In this document: positions 388 to 7,891 of the stretch, one piece after another
Position numbering within the stretch: position 1 is the first letter of the stretch
Layout: every line of letters starts with the position of its first letter
Origin: Treponema sp.
GTDB taxonomy: Bacteria > Spirochaetota > Spirochaetia > Treponematales > Treponemataceae
Direction of reading: 5' to 3'
NCBI GenBank assembly: GCA_017963165.1
Contig: JAGCTZ010000104.1
Coordinates: forward strand, 1 to 8,238
Length of the DNA stretch: 8,238 bases
Position numbers and translations under genes: made by a program
The notes under the pieces: generated by a model
Told to the model about the DNA's origin: nothing
What the model saw: only the letters and a program-made list of their open reading frames with translations
Databases searched by the model: none

Positions 388-2340
388 ATGAAAAAAGGGT
401 TAATTATATTTGCGACAGCTTGTGCCATCATTACAAGTATTATATTTGCTTCGTGCAGTAATATGCTGGAAGATTTACGAAATGCCGGAAAGAAGATTAC
501 ACTGGTGAGTGGTTACAAAGGGGAAACCATAGAATTTGGAAGCTGGCCGCAGTCCGAAGCTGAAAATATAACAGCCAGTAATCTTACCGCTACAGGTAAA
601 AAGTATGATGGGGAAAATGAAGAGTATAAGGATGCTGAAAATAATTACTATGTAAAGGTCGGAGATAAGTATTACAAAGTTGAACCAATAACCTGGCGTG
701 TTATTGCATATTATTCCGATGGAAGTAAACTGCTTTTAGCCGATAAGATTTATTCAAGAATTCCTTATTACGGAACAACATCAAATCGTGATTTAAGTGG
801 AACAACGATTTACCCAAACAACTACAAATATTCAAACATACGTGCTTATTTAAATAGTACAAAAAATCAGTTTGTGACAGATAGCAATACAACTACATCT
901 GATGATGATTGGGCAGGCAAAGGCTTTTTAACTTCTGCCTTTACTGGTGACGAGCTTGCAAAAATTAAGACAACAGCAGTTGATAACAGTGCAGCTTCAA
1001 CAGGTTATGATTTAAATGAATATGCTTGTGAAAATACAGAAGATAAAGTGCATTTGTTAAGCTATAAGGAAGCAACAAATCCACTGTATGGTTTGAGTAA
1101 AAATGCAGACAGAATTATGCAGGCAACTGATTACGCTAGAGCAAACGGTGCCGGTGGGGACTGGTGGCTGCGTTCTCCTAGCTATCGTGATAGTGACAGC
1201 GCGCGCTACATCCTCTACGATGGCGACGACTACTACTACTACTATGTTAACGACTGGTATGTGGGGGTTGTGCCGGCTTTGACTGTTAATAATTTATACA
1301 CCGTAACGTTTGATACCGATGGCGGAAGTGCTATTCCAAAGCAAACTGTAAGTAAAGGCGAAAAAGTAGTAAAGCCAACTGTTCCGATAAAAACTGATGA
1401 TGAAGACAATTTGTATGAATTCCTGGGCTGGTACAACGGGAAAACAAAATATGATTTTGATGCAACCGTTGGTACAGACATAACGCTTAAGGCAAAATGG
1501 AATAAAATTAAACTAGAGAGTGGTTACACTGTAGAAGAAAAATATTCTTTTGGAAGCTGGCCACAGTCTAAAGTTACAGATATAACAGGTATTACTTTTA
1601 TCGATTCTGACAGAAACAGAACTTATGATGGAAAATATAAAGAATATTTAGGTAGTGACAACCTGTACTATGTAAAGGTCGGTGAAACGTATTACAAAGT
1701 TGAACCAATACAATGGCGTGTTATTGCAACTTATTCCGATGGAAGTAAACTGCTTTTAGCCGATAAGATTTATTCAAGAATTCCTTATTACGGAACAACA
1801 TCAAATCGAGATTTAAGTGAAACAACGATTTACCCAAACAACTACAAATATTCAAACATACGTGCTTATTTAAATAGTACAAAAAATCAGTTTGAAACAG
1901 ACGGTGGGACACCAACAAGCTATGATGTAGACTGGACAAATGCAGGATTTTTAAGCGCTGCTTTTACAACTACCGAGCTTGAAAAAATTAAGACAACAGC
2001 AGTTGATAACAGTGCAGCTTCAACAGGTTATGATTCAAATGAATATGCTTGTGAAAATACAGAAGATAAAGTGTATTTGTTAAGCTATAAGGAAGCAACA
2101 AATCCACGGTATGGTTTGGGTAATAATGAATACAGAATTATGCAAACAACTGATTACGCTATAGCAAACGGTGCATATCAGAGTATAACGGAAGGTGCCG
2201 GTGGTTTCTGGTGGCTGCGCTCTCCTTACTATTATAATAGTTACAAAGCGCGCCACATCCTCCACGATGGCGACTACACCAAATACGATGTTTACGTCGA
2301 TGATGTGGGGGTTGTGCCGGCTTTGACTGTTACGGAGTAA
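388..2340 (+). CDS. Surface lipoprotein with two DUF6273-like domains and an InlB/Flg_new-type repeat
   Basis: A 650-residue protein preceded by a clear ribosome binding site (GGAAGGGAG, 371-379) 8 bases before the ATG. Residues 1-22 form a lipoprotein signal peptide: two lysines, a hydrophobic core, then FASC with Cys23 as the probable lipidated residue, a relaxed lipobox of the spirochaete kind. Residues 40-300 and 377-648 are two copies of a domain with the order FGSWPQS, YYKVEPIxWRVIA, LLLADKIYS, IRAYLN, IKTTAVDNS, DKVxLLSYKEATN, WWLRSP and VGVVPALTV. I match these from memory to DUF6273, whose function is unknown. Residues about 304-373 are one InlB/Flg_new-type repeat (YTVTFDTDGG start, FLGWY centre, LKAKWNK end), a module common in secreted and surface proteins. 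The protein probably sits on the cell surface. The end of each DUF6273 copy (WWLRSP to VGVVPAL) is strongly diversified while most of the rest is nearly identical. Binding or adhesion is plausible but not shown. Confidence 0.93.
   Translation: MKKGLIIFATACAIITSIIFASCSNMLEDLRNAGKKITLVSGYKGETIEFGSWPQSEAENITASNLTATGKKYDGENEEYKDAENNYYVKVGDKYYKVEPITWRVIAYYSDGSKLLLADKIYSRIPYYGTTSNRDLSGTTIYPNNYKYSNIRAYLNSTKNQFVTDSNTTTSDDDWAGKGFLTSAFTGDELAKIKTTAVDNSAASTGYDLNEYACENTEDKVHLLSYKEATNPLYGLSKNADRIMQATDYARANGAGGDWWLRSPSYRDSDSARYILYDGDDYYYYYVNDWYVGVVPALTVNNLYTVTFDTDGGSAIPKQTVSKGEKVVKPTVPIKTDDEDNLYEFLGWYNGKTKYDFDATVGTDITLKAKWNKIKLESGYTVEEKYSFGSWPQSKVTDITGITFIDSDRNRTYDGKYKEYLGSDNLYYVKVGETYYKVEPIQWRVIATYSDGSKLLLADKIYSRIPYYGTTSNRDLSETTIYPNNYKYSNIRAYLNSTKNQFETDGGTPTSYDVDWTNAGFLSAAFTTTELEKIKTTAVDNSAASTGYDSNEYACENTEDKVYLLSYKEATNPRYGLGNNEYRIMQTTDYAIANGAYQSITEGAGGFWWLRSPYYYNSYKARHILHDGDYTKYDVYVDDVGVVPALTVTE
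505..1287 (+). repeat. Domain repeat copy 1 (DUF6273-like, residues 40-300)
   Basis: First copy of an internal duplication of about 1.02 kb period within the lipoprotein gene. Its core is nearly identical in DNA to copy 2: 711-874 matches 1731-1894 over 164 bases with only two differences (at 789 and 800), and 961-1095 matches 1984-2118 over 135 bases with three. Divergence is concentrated in the start of the domain, in a stretch around 875-960, and in the segment 1180-1260. Such patchy identity suggests recent duplication or ongoing gene conversion rather than old paralogy. Confidence 0.9.
1147..1288 (+). other. Candidate DGR-type variable repeat 1 (VR1)
   Basis: This segment runs from the GAGG motif through WWLRSP, a diversified stretch at 1180-1260 and a 30-base tail at 1259-1288 that is identical to the tail of VR2. 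In the diversified stretch 25 of 27 codons end in C or T, with many TAC, GAC, AGC and AAC codons, unlike the A/T-ending codons of the rest of the gene. It encodes a run of five tyrosines. The pattern is what adenine-directed mutagenesis of a template rich in AAC/AAT codons would leave. This copy sits in the middle of the protein, whereas most DGR variable repeats lie at the C-terminus. The assignment is inference, since no template repeat or reverse transcriptase is in the window. Confidence 0.5.
1516..2331 (+). repeat. Domain repeat copy 2 (DUF6273-like, residues 377-648)
   Basis: Second copy of the internal duplication, following the InlB-type linker and running almost to the stop codon. 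Compared with copy 1 it has a seven-residue insertion just before the GAGG motif (AYQSITE, around 2173-2193). Its diversified C-terminal segment differs from copy 1 at 14 of 26 aligned codons, with one codon missing. The near-identical cores could pair in homologous recombination, which would delete or add a domain-plus-linker unit. Confidence 0.9.
2194..2332 (+). other. Candidate DGR-type variable repeat 2 (VR2)
   Basis: Counterpart of VR1 at the extreme C-terminus of the lipoprotein, the usual position for a DGR variable repeat. It has the same WWLRSP entry, a diversified stretch at 2227-2304 in which 23 of 26 codons end in C or T, and the shared 30-base tail at 2303-2332, which could act as the initiation-of-mutagenic-homing site. 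Aligned codon by codon with VR1 (one codon gap), I count 21 base differences, 18 of them at codon positions 1 or 2. A GC-rich hairpin begins 22 bases after the tail, and a hairpin just downstream of the variable repeat is a known feature of some DGR targets. Confidence 0.5.
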
Positions 2341-2354
2341 CTGTCTATCTATCC

Positions 2355-2367
2355 GCGGCATGGCCGC
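2355..2367 (+). terminator. GC-rich hairpin after the lipoprotein gene, possible terminator
   Basis: GCGGC (2355-2359) and GCCGC (2363-2367) form a perfect 5-bp stem with a 3-base loop, starting 14 bases after the stop codon. The following TTAAAATCTTT is T-rich but is not an unbroken T tract, so this is at best a weak intrinsic terminator. An alternative is a target-site hairpin for mutagenic homing, if the preceding segment is a real DGR variable repeat. Confidence 0.4.
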
Positions 2368-2375
2368 TTAAAATC

Positions 2376-2440
2376 TTTATAAATCATTACGGCCGGCCGC
2401 TATGCGGACGGTGCCCTTTGGGCAAGTAATGATTTATAAA
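2376..2440. repeat. Cloverleaf-like inverted repeat element
   Basis: A perfect 15-bp inverted repeat (2376-2390 with 2426-2440) encloses 35 bases that fold into two further perfect hairpins: CCGC/GCGG at 2397-2407 with a 3-base loop, and TGCCC/GGGCA at 2412-2424 with a TTT loop. The loop region also contains the palindrome GGCCGGCC (2391-2398). The outer arms are A+T-rich and the inner hairpins are G+C-rich. It lies between two converging genes. It could be a dispersed intergenic repeat or MITE-like element, or a bidirectional transcription stop. I see no unbroken T tract on either strand and no flanking target-site duplication that I can identify. Confidence 0.7.
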
Positions 2441-2452
2441 AAAGGTGTTCAA

Positions 2453-2587
2453 ATGGCAACTAATAATCCCCATTTTTGTGGTAGTTTAATCGGCAATTTT
2501 GTGGTCAATTTCAACCACTGTCCCCACCGTACAAGCTTTTCTGCCAGCGATGTGAAGCCAAGAAGTTTTTCGGAATTAATTATATAA
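2453..2587 (+). CDS. Doubtful small ORF (44 codons), unknown function
   Basis: An ATG at 2453 is preceded by AAGGTG (2442-2447) with 5-base spacing, a possible ribosome binding site. The reading frame gives a short protein of mixed composition with His and Cys residues (HFCGS, NHCPHRTSF) and no membrane segment or signal peptide. It ends 8 bases inside the 3' end of the convergent HD-domain gene. The frame stays open back to 2402 through the inverted repeat, but that part looks structural rather than coding. I do not recognise it. It may be a real small protein, a degraded gene remnant or chance. Confidence 0.2.
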   Translation: MATNNPHFCGSLIGNFVVNFNHCPHRTSFSASDVKPRSFSELII

Positions 2588-3746
2588 GTTTAACACACCC
2601 ATATTTTGTGTCTTTGTAGGCTAGAAAATCATTTATAATTTTACGTGCAAAAGGGGAAATTTTCGAAAGCCGCACTGTCTGTGTGCCCGATACTACCAGC
2701 GGGTCAATGTATCTTTGTTTTACATTCAATGAAATAGAAAAATATTCATCTTCGGGCAGCGCGCAATCTGTATGTTCAATTGCTGTCATGGTGCGGAAGG
2801 TTTTGTAAAGGCGGGCGAGCTTTGATAGCGGCCCTTCGACAGGCTCAGGGACCGCAAGGAACAAATGGGGTCCCTGAGGCTCTCGAAGGGCCGCCACATG
2901 TTCCAGTTTATCCATAATCTCCCGTTCGCTTTTTTCCATAAAATCATCTTCGTGCAGCACGCCTTGTTCAACGGCCAGGTTCATAATCTGTCCAAGCATG
3001 TGAAGAGTGAGCTTGTTTTCATTAAGCTGCAGAATGTGGCCAATCATACAAAAACGACGGCAATAGTCTTCTGCAATTTCTAGAGTGTTAAATCCAATTT
3101 CGTCCAGGCCATCTTCATTTTTCAGAACAGTAATGTCATTGTAGGCTCGTTCAATGGAAGGCAGATCCCAGGTTCCGTCTAGTGCCATGCCGGAAGGAAA
3201 CATATATTCAAGGCGGTCGGCGCTAAGCTGGGGAATTTCGTTGTCGGCAACAGGGTAGATATGATAGTCGCAGATATCATTTACTGTAAGTCCATCCTGG
3301 GCCAACAGCTGACACAACGCAGTATCATTTTTTAAAAGCCGTTCATTGTCAGATTCTGTTGCTGTTTGTGTGAGAGCATCACCTTTCCTGAAATCAGAAA
3401 CGTGTGAAAAAACAGGGGTGGAAGCATCGTGAAAAAGGCCAGCGAGCGTTTGCTTTTTGTCGTGTGTAAAATGCCAGATAATCAGGGCAACTCCCACAGA
3501 ATGATCAAGCCGCGAATAATAAAAACGGTTTTTGTAAAGCTTTGTCCAGTCTGTTCCGCATAACAAGCCTACGCCTTTTAGTCGCGCAAGAATTGGCAGG
3601 GCTATATACTTGTCCAAAAAGTCAGGATAATCGGGACTAAGGATTTTGTGATATTTTTTGATGTCGTAAAACTCGGCCGGATTTTCAGGCCATTTGTTCA
3701 ACGACATCATTGTGTTCCAGTCAAACTGCGAAAAATAATTTTCCAT
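2580..3746 (-). CDS. HD-domain phosphohydrolase (dNTPase/SAMHD1-like)
   Basis: A 388-residue cytosolic protein with the metal-binding signature of the HD superfamily: His82 (RLDHS), His106-Asp107 (LFHDAS, followed by TPVFSH), and Asp177 (SADRLEY). The order H...HD...D and the PVFSH context resemble the dGTPase/SAMHD1 branch, so hydrolysis of a nucleotide or other phosphoester is likely, but the substrate cannot be read from the sequence. The start lies 11 bases after the mscS stop. No good ribosome binding site precedes it, so translation probably depends on coupling with mscS. A second possible start is the Met pair at residues 13-14. The gene is the last of the probable PAS-GGDEF, nth, mscS, HD operon. 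Residues 285-307 are encoded by a palindromic repeat inserted in frame, well after the catalytic core. The stop is TAA, with no clear intrinsic terminator after it. Confidence 0.85.
   Translation of the reverse strand: MENYFSQFDWNTMMSLNKWPENPAEFYDIKKYHKILSPDYPDFLDKYIALPILARLKGVGLLCGTDWTKLYKNRFYYSRLDHSVGVALIIWHFTHDKKQTLAGLFHDASTPVFSHVSDFRKGDALTQTATESDNERLLKNDTALCQLLAQDGLTVNDICDYHIYPVADNEIPQLSADRLEYMFPSGMALDGTWDLPSIERAYNDITVLKNEDGLDEIGFNTLEIAEDYCRRFCMIGHILQLNENKLTLHMLGQIMNLAVEQGVLHEDDFMEKSEREIMDKLEHVAALREPQGPHLFLAVPEPVEGPLSKLARLYKTFRTMTAIEHTDCALPEDEYFSISLNVKQRYIDPLVVSGTQTVRLSKISPFARKIINDFLAYKDTKYGCVKLI
2828..2894. repeat. Palindromic repeat element inserted in frame within the HD gene
   Basis: Arms 2828-2853 and 2869-2894 are 26 bases each and pair at 24 positions around a 15-base loop. 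The arm core CCCTTCGACAGGCTCAGGG encodes PEPVEG in the HD gene frame (minus strand) and LSLSKG in another minus-strand frame. These are tell-tale peptides of a palindromic repeat that I remember as widespread in bacterial genomes. Its G+C content stands out from the host gene, whose frame is kept through it. Confidence 0.85.
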
Positions 3747-3757
3747 GTTAATTTCAA

Positions 3758-4633
3758 CTAACTGTTTTCTACCATTGCAACATCAAGCCTGTTGAATGGA
3801 GTTTGTAATCCAATTTCGGCTTTTTCTTTCATGATTGCAATATGAAGATCGCTCTTTGTCTGCAAAAAGTCTTTAGGATCAAACCAGACTGCTACAGTTA
3901 TATCAATTCCGGAATCGCAGAACTGATTTACCCATACGGCAGGAGCTGGGTCTTTTAAAACTGTTTCACAATCATTTGCTGCTTTGAGGTAAGTCTTAAG
4001 TGCAAGCTCAAGGTCATCGCCATAAGCAACAGGACAGGTTACTGTAAGACGTCTTTTTGCATGGAATGACTTATTCATAAGATTTGTGTTGATGATTGTA
4101 GAGTTTGGAATACGAACCATTTCGTTATCAAGTGTATGAACTGTAACAGAAATAAGATTTATAGAATCAACAACACCTGTAATTCCATCAACAATAATTG
4201 TATCACCAATTTTAATTGCACCTTCTGTAAGAACAAAAAGTCCGCTTATAAGATTGCTTACGCTTGTTTGGGCAGCAAAACCAATTGCAACTCCGGCAAT
4301 TCCTGCAGCGCCCCATATTGCGCCAAGCTTTACACCAAACAGACTTAATACATACATAACTACTACGACGTAGAAAATGTAGTGAAGGAATTTTATAAGA
4401 ATAAGCGAACGTGCTTTTGGAAGTTTTCGCTCCGGTACTTTTTTAATGCCACGAACAATCAGTCTAAAGATAATCCAAAAAACAAAGATTATTATGAGAG
4501 CGCCTATAACTTTAAAAAGATTTTCCCAGGTGAGGAAGCTTTTTATCCAGTTCATAAAAGAAGAGGTTTGTTCCATAAGGGAGTTACCGGCACTTTTAAG
4601 CCCATCAGTTACATCGTGAAGAGTATCATCCAT
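3758..4633 (-). CDS. mscS: Small-conductance mechanosensitive channel (MscS family)
   Basis: A 291-residue inner-membrane protein, close to the 286 residues of E. coli MscS. An amphipathic N-terminus is followed by membrane segments at about residues 40-60 and 82-100 and the pore helix at about 103-132. The pore helix has the Gly/Ala-rich packing of the family (WGAAGIAGVAIGFAAQTSVSN). The cytoplasmic beta domain follows with the typical IGDTIIVDG and VRIPNSTIINTNLMNKS. The channel opens under membrane tension and releases solutes on osmotic downshift. I chose the ATG at 4633 rather than one 24 bases upstream because AAGGAG lies 7 bases before it. The gene overlaps the end of nth by 8 bases and is followed after 11 bases by the HD gene. 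Nothing essential appears to be missing. Confidence 0.95.
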   Translation of the reverse strand: MDDTLHDVTDGLKSAGNSLMEQTSSFMNWIKSFLTWENLFKVIGALIIIFVFWIIFRLIVRGIKKVPERKLPKARSLILIKFLHYIFYVVVVMYVLSLFGVKLGAIWGAAGIAGVAIGFAAQTSVSNLISGLFVLTEGAIKIGDTIIVDGITGVVDSINLISVTVHTLDNEMVRIPNSTIINTNLMNKSFHAKRRLTVTCPVAYGDDLELALKTYLKAANDCETVLKDPAPAVWVNQFCDSGIDITVAVWFDPKDFLQTKSDLHIAIMKEKAEIGLQTPFNRLDVAMVENS

Positions 4634-5303
4634 TTTTATTCTCCTTACAAATATCATTTATTATACATGTATTACACTTTGGATTTCTAGCCGTACAGAC
4701 ATATCTTCCGTGGAGCAAAAGCCAGTGATGAGCATTGCCAAGATATTCTGAAGGGATTCTTTGTAAAAGCGATTCTTCAACCTGTTCCGGAGTTGTTCCG
4801 CTTGCAAGCCCAATTTTAGGACAGATTCTAAGCAGGTGAGTATCTACAGGCATAGTCGGTTTTTTGAAAATAACATTTAAAACAACGTTTGCGGTTTTGC
4901 GGCCTACACCTCTTAAAGTCATAAGTTTATCACGGTCATCTGGAACCTGGCTGTTAAAATCTTTTATAAGCTGTTCCGAAAGTTTAATGATATTTGCGGC
5001 TTTGTTTTTATAAAGTCCTATTGATTTGATATAAGGAATAAGTCCGTCAACTCCAAGTGCAAGCATTTTTTGTGGAGTATCTGCAACTTTAAAAAGAGGC
5101 TTTGTTGCAAGGTTTACACTTTTATCTGTGGCCTGTGCCGAAAGAACAACAGCCACAAGCAGCGTATATGGATTCACATATTCAAGCTCAGATTTGGGAT
5201 TGGGGTTCTGCGCTTTGAGTCGTTCCATTATTTTTATTATCTGATTTTTTGACAGCAGTTTGGTTTGATTCTGCTTTATACCCTGTTTTATATTCTGCTC
5301 CAT
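4626..5303 (-). CDS. nth: Endonuclease III, DNA glycosylase/AP lyase
   Basis: A 225-residue base-excision repair enzyme that removes oxidised pyrimidines and cleaves at the abasic site. The helix-hairpin-helix is LRGVGRKTANVV (residues 130-141) with catalytic Lys136. The catalytic Asp154 is in PVDTHLLRI, at the same 18-residue distance from the lysine as Lys120 and Asp138 of E. coli. Cys203, 210, 213 and 219 form the C-x6-C-x2-C-x5-C pattern of the [4Fe-4S] cluster. The LLVAVVLSAQATD motif at 48-60 is also typical. The protein is about 14 residues longer than E. coli Nth (211), mainly in a polar N-terminal extension. The start is supported by CGGAG 9 bases before the ATG. The gene follows the GGDEF gene after 15 bases and overlaps mscS by 8. 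Confidence 0.97.
   Translation of the reverse strand: MEQNIKQGIKQNQTKLLSKNQIIKIMERLKAQNPNPKSELEYVNPYTLLVAVVLSAQATDKSVNLATKPLFKVADTPQKMLALGVDGLIPYIKSIGLYKNKAANIIKLSEQLIKDFNSQVPDDRDKLMTLRGVGRKTANVVLNVIFKKPTMPVDTHLLRICPKIGLASGTTPEQVEESLLQRIPSEYLGNAHHWLLLHGRYVCTARNPKCNTCIINDICKENKNG
4641..4646 (-). promoter_or_regulatory. mscS ribosome binding site inside the nth 3' end
   Basis: AAGGAG on the minus strand overlaps the last Lys-Glu codons of nth and lies 7 bases before the ATG at 4633. It decides the mscS start, and it implies that ribosomes finishing nth reach the mscS start directly, so the two are probably translationally coupled. Confidence 0.85.
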
Positions 5304-5318
5304 CTGGAATTCTCCGGT

Positions 5319-6614
5319 TTATTTTTTCTTAAGCTTCTTTTTGTTTTCATACATTTCGTCATCGGCTCTGTCAAATACAGCTGCAACATTTTTATCTGCC
5401 GCAAAAATAAAATCTGCCAGGCCGCTTGCAACTACGGCTTTATTTTCTTTTCGATTATGAGAAGCAGTTTTCTGAAACTTTGCAAAAATCTTTTCACGGT
5501 CAAAGTAATCGGCACCTAACAGAATTACAGCAAATTCATCGCCGCCAATTCTGTAAACGGGACTATGGGTAAAGGTTTCGCAGATAAGCTTTGAAGCTTC
5601 GCAGATAAGGGCATCGCCGGCTTCGTGTCCGTATTTATCGTTTGTTTTCTTAAGATTGTTCAAATCAAAAATGGCGATAGAAAAAGGACTTATTGTTCCG
5701 GCTTTTATTTCTTCATTCATATGCTCTTCTGCTTTTTCAAAAGCAAGACGATTTTTTATTCCTGTAAGAGCATCTGTGTTTGCCATTTCTGTTGCAAGCC
5801 TGATTTTTTCTGAATACTCGCGTTCGAGCTTTACGTTTTCTTCTATATTCTGAATTGCAATGATACAGTGATTTGAATCTTCCTGGAGTGAAGGAGCAAC
5901 AGTCAGTCGGTAAAAAAGCGGTTTTCCGTTTATTTCCAATCGATATCTGACAGAAATTGTTTTTCGGGCTTTAATTGCAGGCTTAAGGTTTTCTTTGGAA
6001 ATAAAATCACTTACACGTTTGCGGTCGGCAATATAAACGATTGATGGAATGTTTTGTTCAGATTCCTTAAAAAAGTCTGAGCCTTCTGTCTGTAATTTAA
6101 ATTCCTTAAAATTTCCGTGTCCTATATATTCTTTATATTTACCGGTTTTTATATTTACATAATAGACGCATTCATAATCTTGACAAAGAGCCTGTGCAAT
6201 TCCAAAAAGAGTTACGCTGTTTGTATAATTTCTTAACTCTGAATTGTTGCGGAAAAATCCTTTATATATTTTTGTTGTCTTAGAAGAGGATTCAAGAATC
6301 CCGCCGAACAAGATTGTAATTTCTCCTTTTTTTGGATGCATCCACGAAAATTCAAGCTCAGAATAATCGCCTTCTTTAAGTTTCTTTATTGCTTTTTTTA
6401 TGTGTTCCTTATATTCATCTGTGACATGATCATACCAGAAAGAGTAGGCTTGCTCTGGTGTAAAAGATTTTGGATCAATTCCAAGAACTTTAGCACCTAT
6501 AGGATTGACGAATAGACGTGTATTTTCATCTTTTTTTGCTTCAATAGTCCAAAGTCCAATTCTTGCTTCCTTGAGGACAGCTGGCATGGAAAAATCTTCA
6601 TAAAAATCTTTCAT
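5319..6614 (-). CDS. PAS-PAS-GGDEF diguanylate cyclase
   Basis: A 431-residue soluble signalling protein that should make cyclic di-GMP from two GTP. The GGDEF domain covers about residues 276-431, starting with NTDALTGIKNR (Asp281). It has DLNNLKKTNDKYGHEAGD as the metal and nucleotide region and an intact catalytic GGDEF at 357-361 (YRIGGDEFAVIL). The RxxD inhibitory site usually found just before it is absent (FTHS at those positions), so product inhibition through that site is unlikely. The N-terminal half (about 10-130 and 150-270) has the character of two PAS-like sensor domains, joined by a short coiled stretch (NVKLEREYSEKIRLATEM) to the cyclase. There are no membrane segments. No ribosome binding site precedes the ATG at 6614, and the promoter lies directly upstream. 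An alternative start is Met10. First gene of the probable four-gene operon. Confidence 0.93.
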   Translation of the reverse strand: MKDFYEDFSMPAVLKEARIGLWTIEAKKDENTRLFVNPIGAKVLGIDPKSFTPEQAYSFWYDHVTDEYKEHIKKAIKKLKEGDYSELEFSWMHPKKGEITILFGGILESSSKTTKIYKGFFRNNSELRNYTNSVTLFGIAQALCQDYECVYYVNIKTGKYKEYIGHGNFKEFKLQTEGSDFFKESEQNIPSIVYIADRKRVSDFISKENLKPAIKARKTISVRYRLEINGKPLFYRLTVAPSLQEDSNHCIIAIQNIEENVKLEREYSEKIRLATEMANTDALTGIKNRLAFEKAEEHMNEEIKAGTISPFSIAIFDLNNLKKTNDKYGHEAGDALICEASKLICETFTHSPVYRIGGDEFAVILLGADYFDREKIFAKFQKTASHNRKENKAVVASGLADFIFAADKNVAAVFDRADDEMYENKKKLKKK

Positions 6615-6682: not shown

Positions 6683-7891
6683 TTACATTGTTACAGCGTT
6701 TTTTAGCTGTTCAATTTTATCGGTTTTTTCCCAAGGGAAGCCGTCGCGTCCAAAGTGTCCGTAGCTTGCTGTTTTTGAATAGATTGGAGCTTTAAGGCCA
6801 AGCGTCTTTGAAATACCGGCTGGTGTGCAGTCAAAAACCTTTTCTACGGCTGCTTCAATTCTGCTCTTTTCGAACTTTTCTGTACCAAAGGTTTCTACCA
6901 TAATACTTACCGGGAAAGGAACGCCAATTGCGTAGGCAAGCTGAACTTCTGCTCTGTCAGAAAGGCCGGCAGCAACAATGTTTTTTGCAATGTAGCGTGC
7001 CATGTAAGCTGCAGAACGGTCAACCTTGCTTGGATCTTTTCCGCTAAAGGCACCACCACCATGACGTCCCATTCCACCATATGTATCTACAATGATTTTT
7101 CGTCCGGTAAGACCTGAATCGCCGTCTGGTCCGCCTTTTACAAAACGTCCTGTAGGATTGATGTAGAATTTTGTTTTATCATCAAGAAGGCCGGTTGGTT
7201 CAAGCACTGGCTTTATAATTTCTTCTATTATAGTTTGTTCAATCTGTTCGTGTGAGATTTCTGGATCATGCTGGTGCGAAATTACAACTGCATCTATGCG
7301 TACGGGTTTGAAGCCGTCATATTCAATTGTAACCTGAGATTTTGCATCTGGTCTGAGCCAGGCAAGCTTTCCGCTTTTACGGAGCTCTGTTGCTTTAATC
7401 AGCAGTTGATGTGAATAATAAACAGGAGCCGGCATAAGAGATGGAGTTTCATTGCAGGCAAAACCGAACATCATTCCCTGGTCGCCTGCACCTTGCTGAC
7501 CTTCGTATTCCTTAAGGCCGGTTCCATCAACACCCTGACTTATATCATCTGACTGAGCGTGAAGTCGGTTCATAAATTCAAAGGTTTTATAATCAAGGCC
7601 TTTGTCGCTGTTGTCATAGCCAATCTGTTTTGCAACATCACGGGCAATTTGTTCGGCCTTTTTATTAAAAGCTTCTATATCAATGTCCTGCTTTTTAAAT
7701 CTAATTTCGCCGCCAATAAGAACAAAATTTGTTGTAGCAAAAGTTTCGCAGGCAACGTGAGCATCTGGATCAAGAGAAAGACTGTAGTCAAGAATAGAAT
7801 CAGAAATCTGGTCACACAATTTGTCCGGGTGACCTTCGCCTACAGATTCAGAAGTAAATAAATAGTGATTTTTGTTTAAGATAGCGTCCAT
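6683..7891 (-). CDS. metK: S-adenosylmethionine synthetase
   Basis: A 402-residue cytosolic enzyme that makes S-adenosylmethionine from methionine and ATP, the methyl donor for DNA, RNA and protein methylation. The family signatures are intact: the ATP-binding [11 protein letters not shown] near the N-terminus (His21, Asp23), the hexapeptide GAGDQG at 134-139 followed by MMFGFACNE, and the glycine-rich [16 protein letters not shown] at 278-293. The length is slightly above the usual 380-400. The start is fixed by a strong AGGAGGT six bases before the ATG at 7891. It has its own promoter and leader, and appears to be transcribed separately from the downstream operon, although no terminator is visible between them. 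Confidence 0.98.

Follow-up and report, generated by a model that had tools for sequence, protein, structure and literature searches.

In Treponema denticola, a DGR acts on TvpA (PDB 2y3c), which is a lipoprotein, and Le Coq and Ghosh reportedly described a C-type lectin fold for the target of this system. Excerpts of PMC4891356 describe target genes remote from the DGR, as well as target genes in isolates that lack its reverse transcriptase (RT) and template repeat (TR). DUF6273 is itself known as a DGR-varied domain with a C-type-lectin-like model, from the gut phages nd4 and nd12 (PMC10743442, in excerpt) and from Faecalibacterium prophages (PMC11792537, in excerpt). Several variable repeats (VRs) can also share one gene: the available part of PMC6642488 places VRs within the same ORF in 31 of 271 multi-VR DGRs, and that of PMC3521204 reports a Marichromatium purpuratum ORF with three FGE-sulfatase paralogues and three VRs, for which its authors allow an artefact. 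For the BPP-1 DGR, the accessible text of PMC3240598 names template adenine bias as a feature, reports that the hairpin after the VR is needed for efficient homing and that breaking its stem lowers tropism switching more than 1000-fold with some residual activity, and finds tail plus hairpin enough to target another gene.

The locus analysed here lies in a window of 8238 bases (the whole stretch of DNA) from a Treponema genome. It resembles the T. denticola system in genus and in remote or coreless targets, and may share the C-type lectin fold, given the model of copy 2 below. The phage DUF6273 targets are phage-borne, whereas the window and its relatives are chromosomal Treponema genes, and the excerpts on the nd4, nd12 and Faecalibacterium prophage targets describe no protein with two VRs, unlike the window. 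Like the multi-VR ORFs excerpted from Marichromatium and Thiohalocapsa PB-PSB1 (PMC10907252), the window has several VRs per gene, and like the Marichromatium ORF it has tandem paralogous domains, although the domain differs; unlike all of these, no core cassette was seen in cis. Its likeness to the BPP-1 DGR, as excerpted, lies in RT similarity in the Treponema system, in a tail and hairpin after the VR, and in template adenine bias. As far as these sources extend, earlier work thus already covers the domain, remote targets and multi-VR ORFs, and the window is a tandem form without the core. The first-pass annotation had suggested that its combination may be undescribed, which holds only in part: DUF6273 targets (PMC10743442, PMC11792537) and multi-VR ORFs (PMC3521204, PMC6642488, PMC10907252) are known, and the exact combination was not found in the accessible literature. 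The excerpts consulted do not report DUF6273 lipoproteins of Treponema as DGR targets, although the supplements of large DGR surveys may list them.

Two DUF6273 copies and their variable segments

Features of the gene, its downstream flank and the related cassette L001 are listed in Table 1. A lipobox-like IFASC motif near the start of the 650-aa protein was recognized by eye rather than with a signal-peptide tool. Pfam and the alignment of 1162-1281 with 2209-2325 confirmed the annotation's view of two DUF6273 copies in one gene, each ending in a diversified segment, and the identical 30-base tail that it placed after both segments can be read directly off the sequence (1259-1288 and 2303-2332). 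Both copies terminate as WWLRSP-(variable)-VGVVPAL. VR2 ends 15 bases before the end of the stop codon and is therefore 3'-terminal; VR1 is internal. The AlphaFold2 model of copy 2, built from 119 alignment rows, gave C-type-lectin-like structure matches for this predicted fold; an earlier model from 24 rows was set aside (pLDDT 45.0, rising to 94.7 with 119 rows). Profile A3 had no match among PDB chains.

Table 1. Coordinates of features in the window and in the complete cassette of L001
Feature	Location	Strand	Basis or remark
Target gene, putative lipoprotein, 650 aa	388..2340	+	ORF list; Pfam PF19789 (DUF6273), two stretches, E 2.1e-39
DUF6273 copy 1, bounds approximate	490..1287	+	direct repeats D1-D5, D12; PF19789 with two stretches
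VR1, internal variable repeat	1162..1281	+	A-biased mismatches to L001 TR
IMH-like tail of VR1	1261..1276	+	16 bases identical to L001 TR; no hairpin after
List_Bact repeat, linker between DUF6273 copies	1297..1497	+	PF09479, residues 304-370, E 4.6e-13
DUF6273 copy 2	1501..2337	+	AlphaFold2 model, pLDDT 94.7
VR2, terminal variable repeat	2209..2325	+	A-biased mismatches to L001 TR
IMH-like tail of VR2	2305..2320	+	16 bases identical to L001 TR
HP1, spans stop codon; 8 pairs, one T.T mismatch, 3-nt loop	2325..2345	+	
HP2, GC-rich 5-bp hairpin	2355..2367	+	
HP3, branched 27-pair structure	2376..2440	+	
3' flank common to window and L001 complete cassette	2338..2466	+	blastn, 93% identity
First avd-like codons, ATGGCAACT	2453..2461	+	blastn against L001; L001 avd start 5848
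L001 target gene, DUF6273 lipoprotein with VR	4191-5735		
L001 Avd-like ORF	starts 5848		NCBIfam DivGenRetAVD, E 2e-14; Pfam bAvd, 1.9e-8
L001 TR, AAY-rich	at 6252		reads WWLRSPNYNNNNNARNINNDGNNNNNNVNNNNVGVVP
L001 RT	6714-7760		best PDB sequence hit 8ub7, E 8.3e-42

Aligned by codon with one copy-1 codon omitted, VR1 and VR2 show 22 base differences, distributed 12/6/4 over codon positions 1/2/3. An earlier count of 18 of 21 differences at positions 1 or 2 therefore keeps its 18 with a total of 22, and the accompanying 48 of 53 codons ending in C or T keep their 48 with a total of 55. C or T third bases occupy 25/28 codons of the variable core of VR1 (0.89) and 23/27 of VR2, against 290/554 in the rest of the gene. 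The framework of the same two copies, compared in ungapped blocks, holds 67 differences (23/21/23), and since 44 of these 67 also fall at positions 1-2, the count by codon position carries little weight by itself; if the gaps are placed differently, as in a plain protein alignment, the segments yield 13/7/12. Sharing of the third base where positions 1-2 differ is not discriminating either (11/14 codons in the VRs, 23/33 in the framework). Firmer evidence than the codon-position count comes from the C/T bias and from a real template, found in a relative, that the segments match.

Templates and cassettes in related genomes

All 24 loci returned by a scan of genome contigs come from metagenome assemblies, 22 of them under the title Treponema and 2 under Spirochaetaceae, and 9 of 17 of these genomes contain an RT domain. 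In L001, from a buffalo rumen Treponema, the order is DUF6273 lipoprotein gene with VR, Avd-like gene, TR and RT. The two Avd matches lie under their curated cut-offs (53.7 of 80 bits; 35.2 of 40), and a search of this Avd against PDB chains gave no match. The best PDB hit of the RT, listed only as Reverse transcriptase, is an entry that we take to be the BPP-1 DGR reverse transcriptase; PADLOC and most NCBIfam hits were generic RT matches. Its motif MGNQSSQ corresponds to the GxxxSQ of DGR RTs, with M where I, V or L is usual before it (PMC3521204, in excerpt). With an RT carrying GxxxSQ, an Avd, an A-rich TR and a VR, L001 holds a complete cassette, and a second complete cassette is L102 in genome G096. 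The two phage records closest to the L001 RT include one named nd12 (38.6%), assumed from this name to be the phage discussed above.

The L001 TR, which comes from another genome than the window's, contains 42 adenines in 117 bases. Against this TR, 22 of 28 mismatches of VR1 fall on TR adenines (binomial p 5e-6), as do 19 of 24 mismatches of VR2 (p 1.9e-5). The off-adenine mismatches number 6/28 and 5/24, and in 7 of these 11 cases the window has the same third base as the L102 TR, by eye and in an after-the-fact reading. The VRs of the cassettes themselves differ from their own TRs at A in 21/22 (L001) and 18/18 (L102) mismatches. For L103, a target on another G096 contig, 20 of 22 mismatches lie at template A, which fits DGR action in trans, and L108 compared with the L102 template gives 16/20. 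Using VR1 or VR2 as the template for the other gave nothing of comparable strength (4/22, p 0.53; 9/22, p 0.03). The VRs of L099 (two), L100, L101 and L007 (three), compared ungapped with the L102 template, have 51-62% of mismatches at A (19/35 to 26/48; p 0.001-0.017); they need other templates or indels and were not counted as support. Judged by adenine differences from a near-identical TR, here one of a related genome, both window segments would qualify as DGR variable repeats. The proposal that they are such repeats, copied from an A-rich template, is supported by L001, with its TR, Avd-like gene and RT, and by the position of the mismatches at adenines.

Of 196 genomes in the group, 37 contain RT relatives (E 1e-20), which are of mixed kinds. 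Those above 60% identity are in G001 itself, G016, G084 and G096, and an AAY-rich template is present in 4/4. A DUF6273 relative (E 1e-30) occurs in 51 of the 196 genomes, and 12 of these 51 also belong to the 37 that have an RT relative. Since every genome is a draft, the absence of RT or DUF6273 means little. A TR search of 200 genomes matched 39 at E 0.01, a figure that is not a template count because most matches are short and some are VRs. Genome G015 holds a different A-rich template-like stretch (L117, about 3018, minus strand) on a contig shared with an RT; by eye it reads like a formylglycine-enzyme-type (LGFRV) DGR template.

Hairpins and the truncated downstream flank

The structures that follow VR2 are retained in related loci: HP1 keeps 8/8 pairs in L001, L002 and L008 and 7/8 in L003; HP2 keeps 5/5 in L001 and L002, 4/5 in L003 and 3/5 in L008 at these columns; and HP3 keeps 27/27 in L001, 25 in L002, 20 in L003 and 23 in L008, where 7 changes are two-sided. 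This comparison covers five sequences and takes the window's own fold as the structure. A hairpin is present after VR2 (score 6.5) and absent after VR1 (3.0). Under a looser tail pattern, with 45 bases scanned and loops of 2-6, scores of at least 6.5 follow 18 of 38 terminal VRs, compared with 3.6% of letter shuffles, and 20 of the 38 are below 6.5; the template class is empty in this test since templates read VPDL. Neither of two internal VRs reaches that score (window VR1, 3.0; L099, 3.5), a tiny sample of related loci. Under a stricter tail pattern, and without L007 and L010, 9/24 terminal VRs score at least 6.5, 2 internal VRs score 3.0 and 3 TRs score 3.5-5.0. L007 carries, on one contig, three terminal VRs of DUF6273 genes in a row (7767, 10745, 13965), with perfect hairpins over their stop codons.

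In phage DGRs the hairpin stem is GC-rich and the loop is a 4-nt GRNA (PMC3240598, in excerpt), whereas HP1, which extends across the stop codon, has a 3-nt loop and no such richness in GC; unlike BPP-1, the window also has two more hairpins after HP1. The accessible text of PMC3521204, PMC6642488 and PMC10907252 yielded no mention of hairpin loss at an internal VR of a multi-VR system. Given the need for the hairpin in BPP-1, VR1 would no longer be a good direct recipient, and it is probably a retired or indirectly refreshed target.

The similarity between the window and L001 stops at 2466, just beyond the avd start, which is cut off there. No RT, TR or avd gene was found in the 8238-base window, and none of its 7 main ORFs matched an RT or Avd family in Pfam. 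In L002, 105 bases of the flank remain, at 93%. By eye, L008 shows the flank hairpins as well as an avd start running into short repeats; the array past the avd start, also read by eye, spans 598-1300 and contains ATTAGGGACAGAGTAA-like units. The RT search was without match in G002 and G008, both draft genomes. Within these 8238 bases, the window resembles a cassette that lacks its core. Further downstream, a 29-base inverted repeat (2828-2894) lies inside an ORF on the minus strand (2580-3746) for which Pfam gave no hit at E 0.001, as if an intergenic repeat had entered the coding frame.

Protein relatives and the state of the internal segment

Among 7,999 candidates scored, 464 proteins reached E 0.001 or better, and 120 were listed. 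A motif search of 197 fetched proteins found 155 variable segments in 152 proteins; 149 were terminal and 6, in 5 proteins, lay more than 12 residues from the C-terminus. Terminal position is therefore usual, not strict. NNY codons cannot encode M, Q, K, E or W, and these residues make up 212 of 4375 positions in the VRs and 14.8% of the 150 residues upstream. When the last segments of P0001-P0033 were compared in pairs, the VR was less alike than the framework in each of the 55 pairs whose framework identity exceeds 80% (means 0.37 vs 0.84). Another pattern found 3 two-segment proteins among 120. In viral contigs there was no relative of the 650-aa protein and the template pattern found 0 stretches, while the 16-base tail matched 15; phage records gave no match to DUF6273 copy 2.

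Two relatives bear on the history of the window. P0001, 97% identical to the window protein, has identical VRs (28/28 and 27/27) and a copy 2 framework identical at 190/205 positions, with a recombined-looking tract between them; judged by eye, the P0001 version of this tract is like copy 1 and the window version is like single-copy targets. This resemblance indicates that recombination between copies or paralogues occurs, and the unchanged VRs leave DGR activity here unproven. In P0002, a two-copy relative, VR1 shares 13/28 residues with that of the window over a framework sharing 166/197, so either VR1 has diversified in the past or the two genes arose by independent duplications. P0002 ends in a third domain, PF07603, after its two DUF6273 copies, and we take PF07603 to be DUF1566. 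The PF07603 domain is known as a DGR target (PMC6642488, in excerpt). L099, a two-copy gene in G001 that also has an internal VR, has a C/T codon fraction of 0.71, less clean than the 0.89 of window VR1, as would be expected if the L099 copy were decaying.

We consider it highly likely that VR1 and VR2 are variable repeats of a Treponema DGR that targets DUF6273 (C-type-lectin-like) lipoproteins. An in-frame tandem copy within the target gene leaves VR1 internal and without a hairpin, with VR2 retaining tail and hairpins. Homing would have taken place in the past of the window lineage and then been lost at VR1. As avd, TR and RT do not follow the window gene as they do in L001, VR2 could change further only with machinery acting in trans, and the gene may either be supplied in this way or be fully orphaned. 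The target protein may have a role in ligand binding.

The weakest competitor is ordinary diversifying selection with recombination and no retroelement. It could draw on framework differences that likewise spread across all codon positions (23/21/23), and we regard it as very improbable, given relatives with an A-rich template beside an RT and 18/18 and 21/22 mismatches at A, and given 48/55 C/T third bases in the window cores. The first-pass annotation had both segments as live targets, a claim that found no support, with an internal VR1 lacking a hairpin and a 97% relative, P0001, unchanged in both. Both VRs could still be live targets of one trans-acting template if homing at VR1 needs the tail alone. 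VR1 is as clean as VR2 (25/28 vs 23/27), it is strongly unlike that of P0002 (13/28 over a framework at 166/197), the target on another G096 contig fits trans action (20/22 at A), and distinct VRs of one Thiohalocapsa PB-PSB1 target were diversified at different levels (PMC10907252, in excerpt). Against this stand the missing hairpin, given the more than 1000-fold loss of tropism switching with a broken stem in BPP-1 (PMC3240598, in excerpt), and the identity of VR1 in P0001, and we judge this reading unlikely.

Alternatively, VR1 may serve as a store without a hairpin, into which gene conversion, not direct homing, brings sequence from VR2 or other target genes. The window/P0001 tract in copy 2 implies recombination between copies or paralogues; in that single comparison, however, the VRs did not move, and the idea seems to us rather improbable. 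Much the same doubt attaches to VR1 as a parked variant, which for want of a hairpin would escape direct homing and be renewed through gene conversion alone, with the hairpin-bearing terminal VR or paralogues as donors; if that were true, one protein would present a stable binding face together with a changing one.

If VRs of a Treponema DGR are what the window holds, DUF6273 lipoproteins of gut and rumen Treponema join the chromosomal DGR targets, with complete cassettes and their template supplied by relatives. The gene would also serve as a natural experiment on what turns a VR into a target: one gene with two VRs, the same tail at both and hairpins at one only. Should VR1 prove frozen while VR2 varies, the BPP-1 hairpin rule would hold in chromosomal DGRs.
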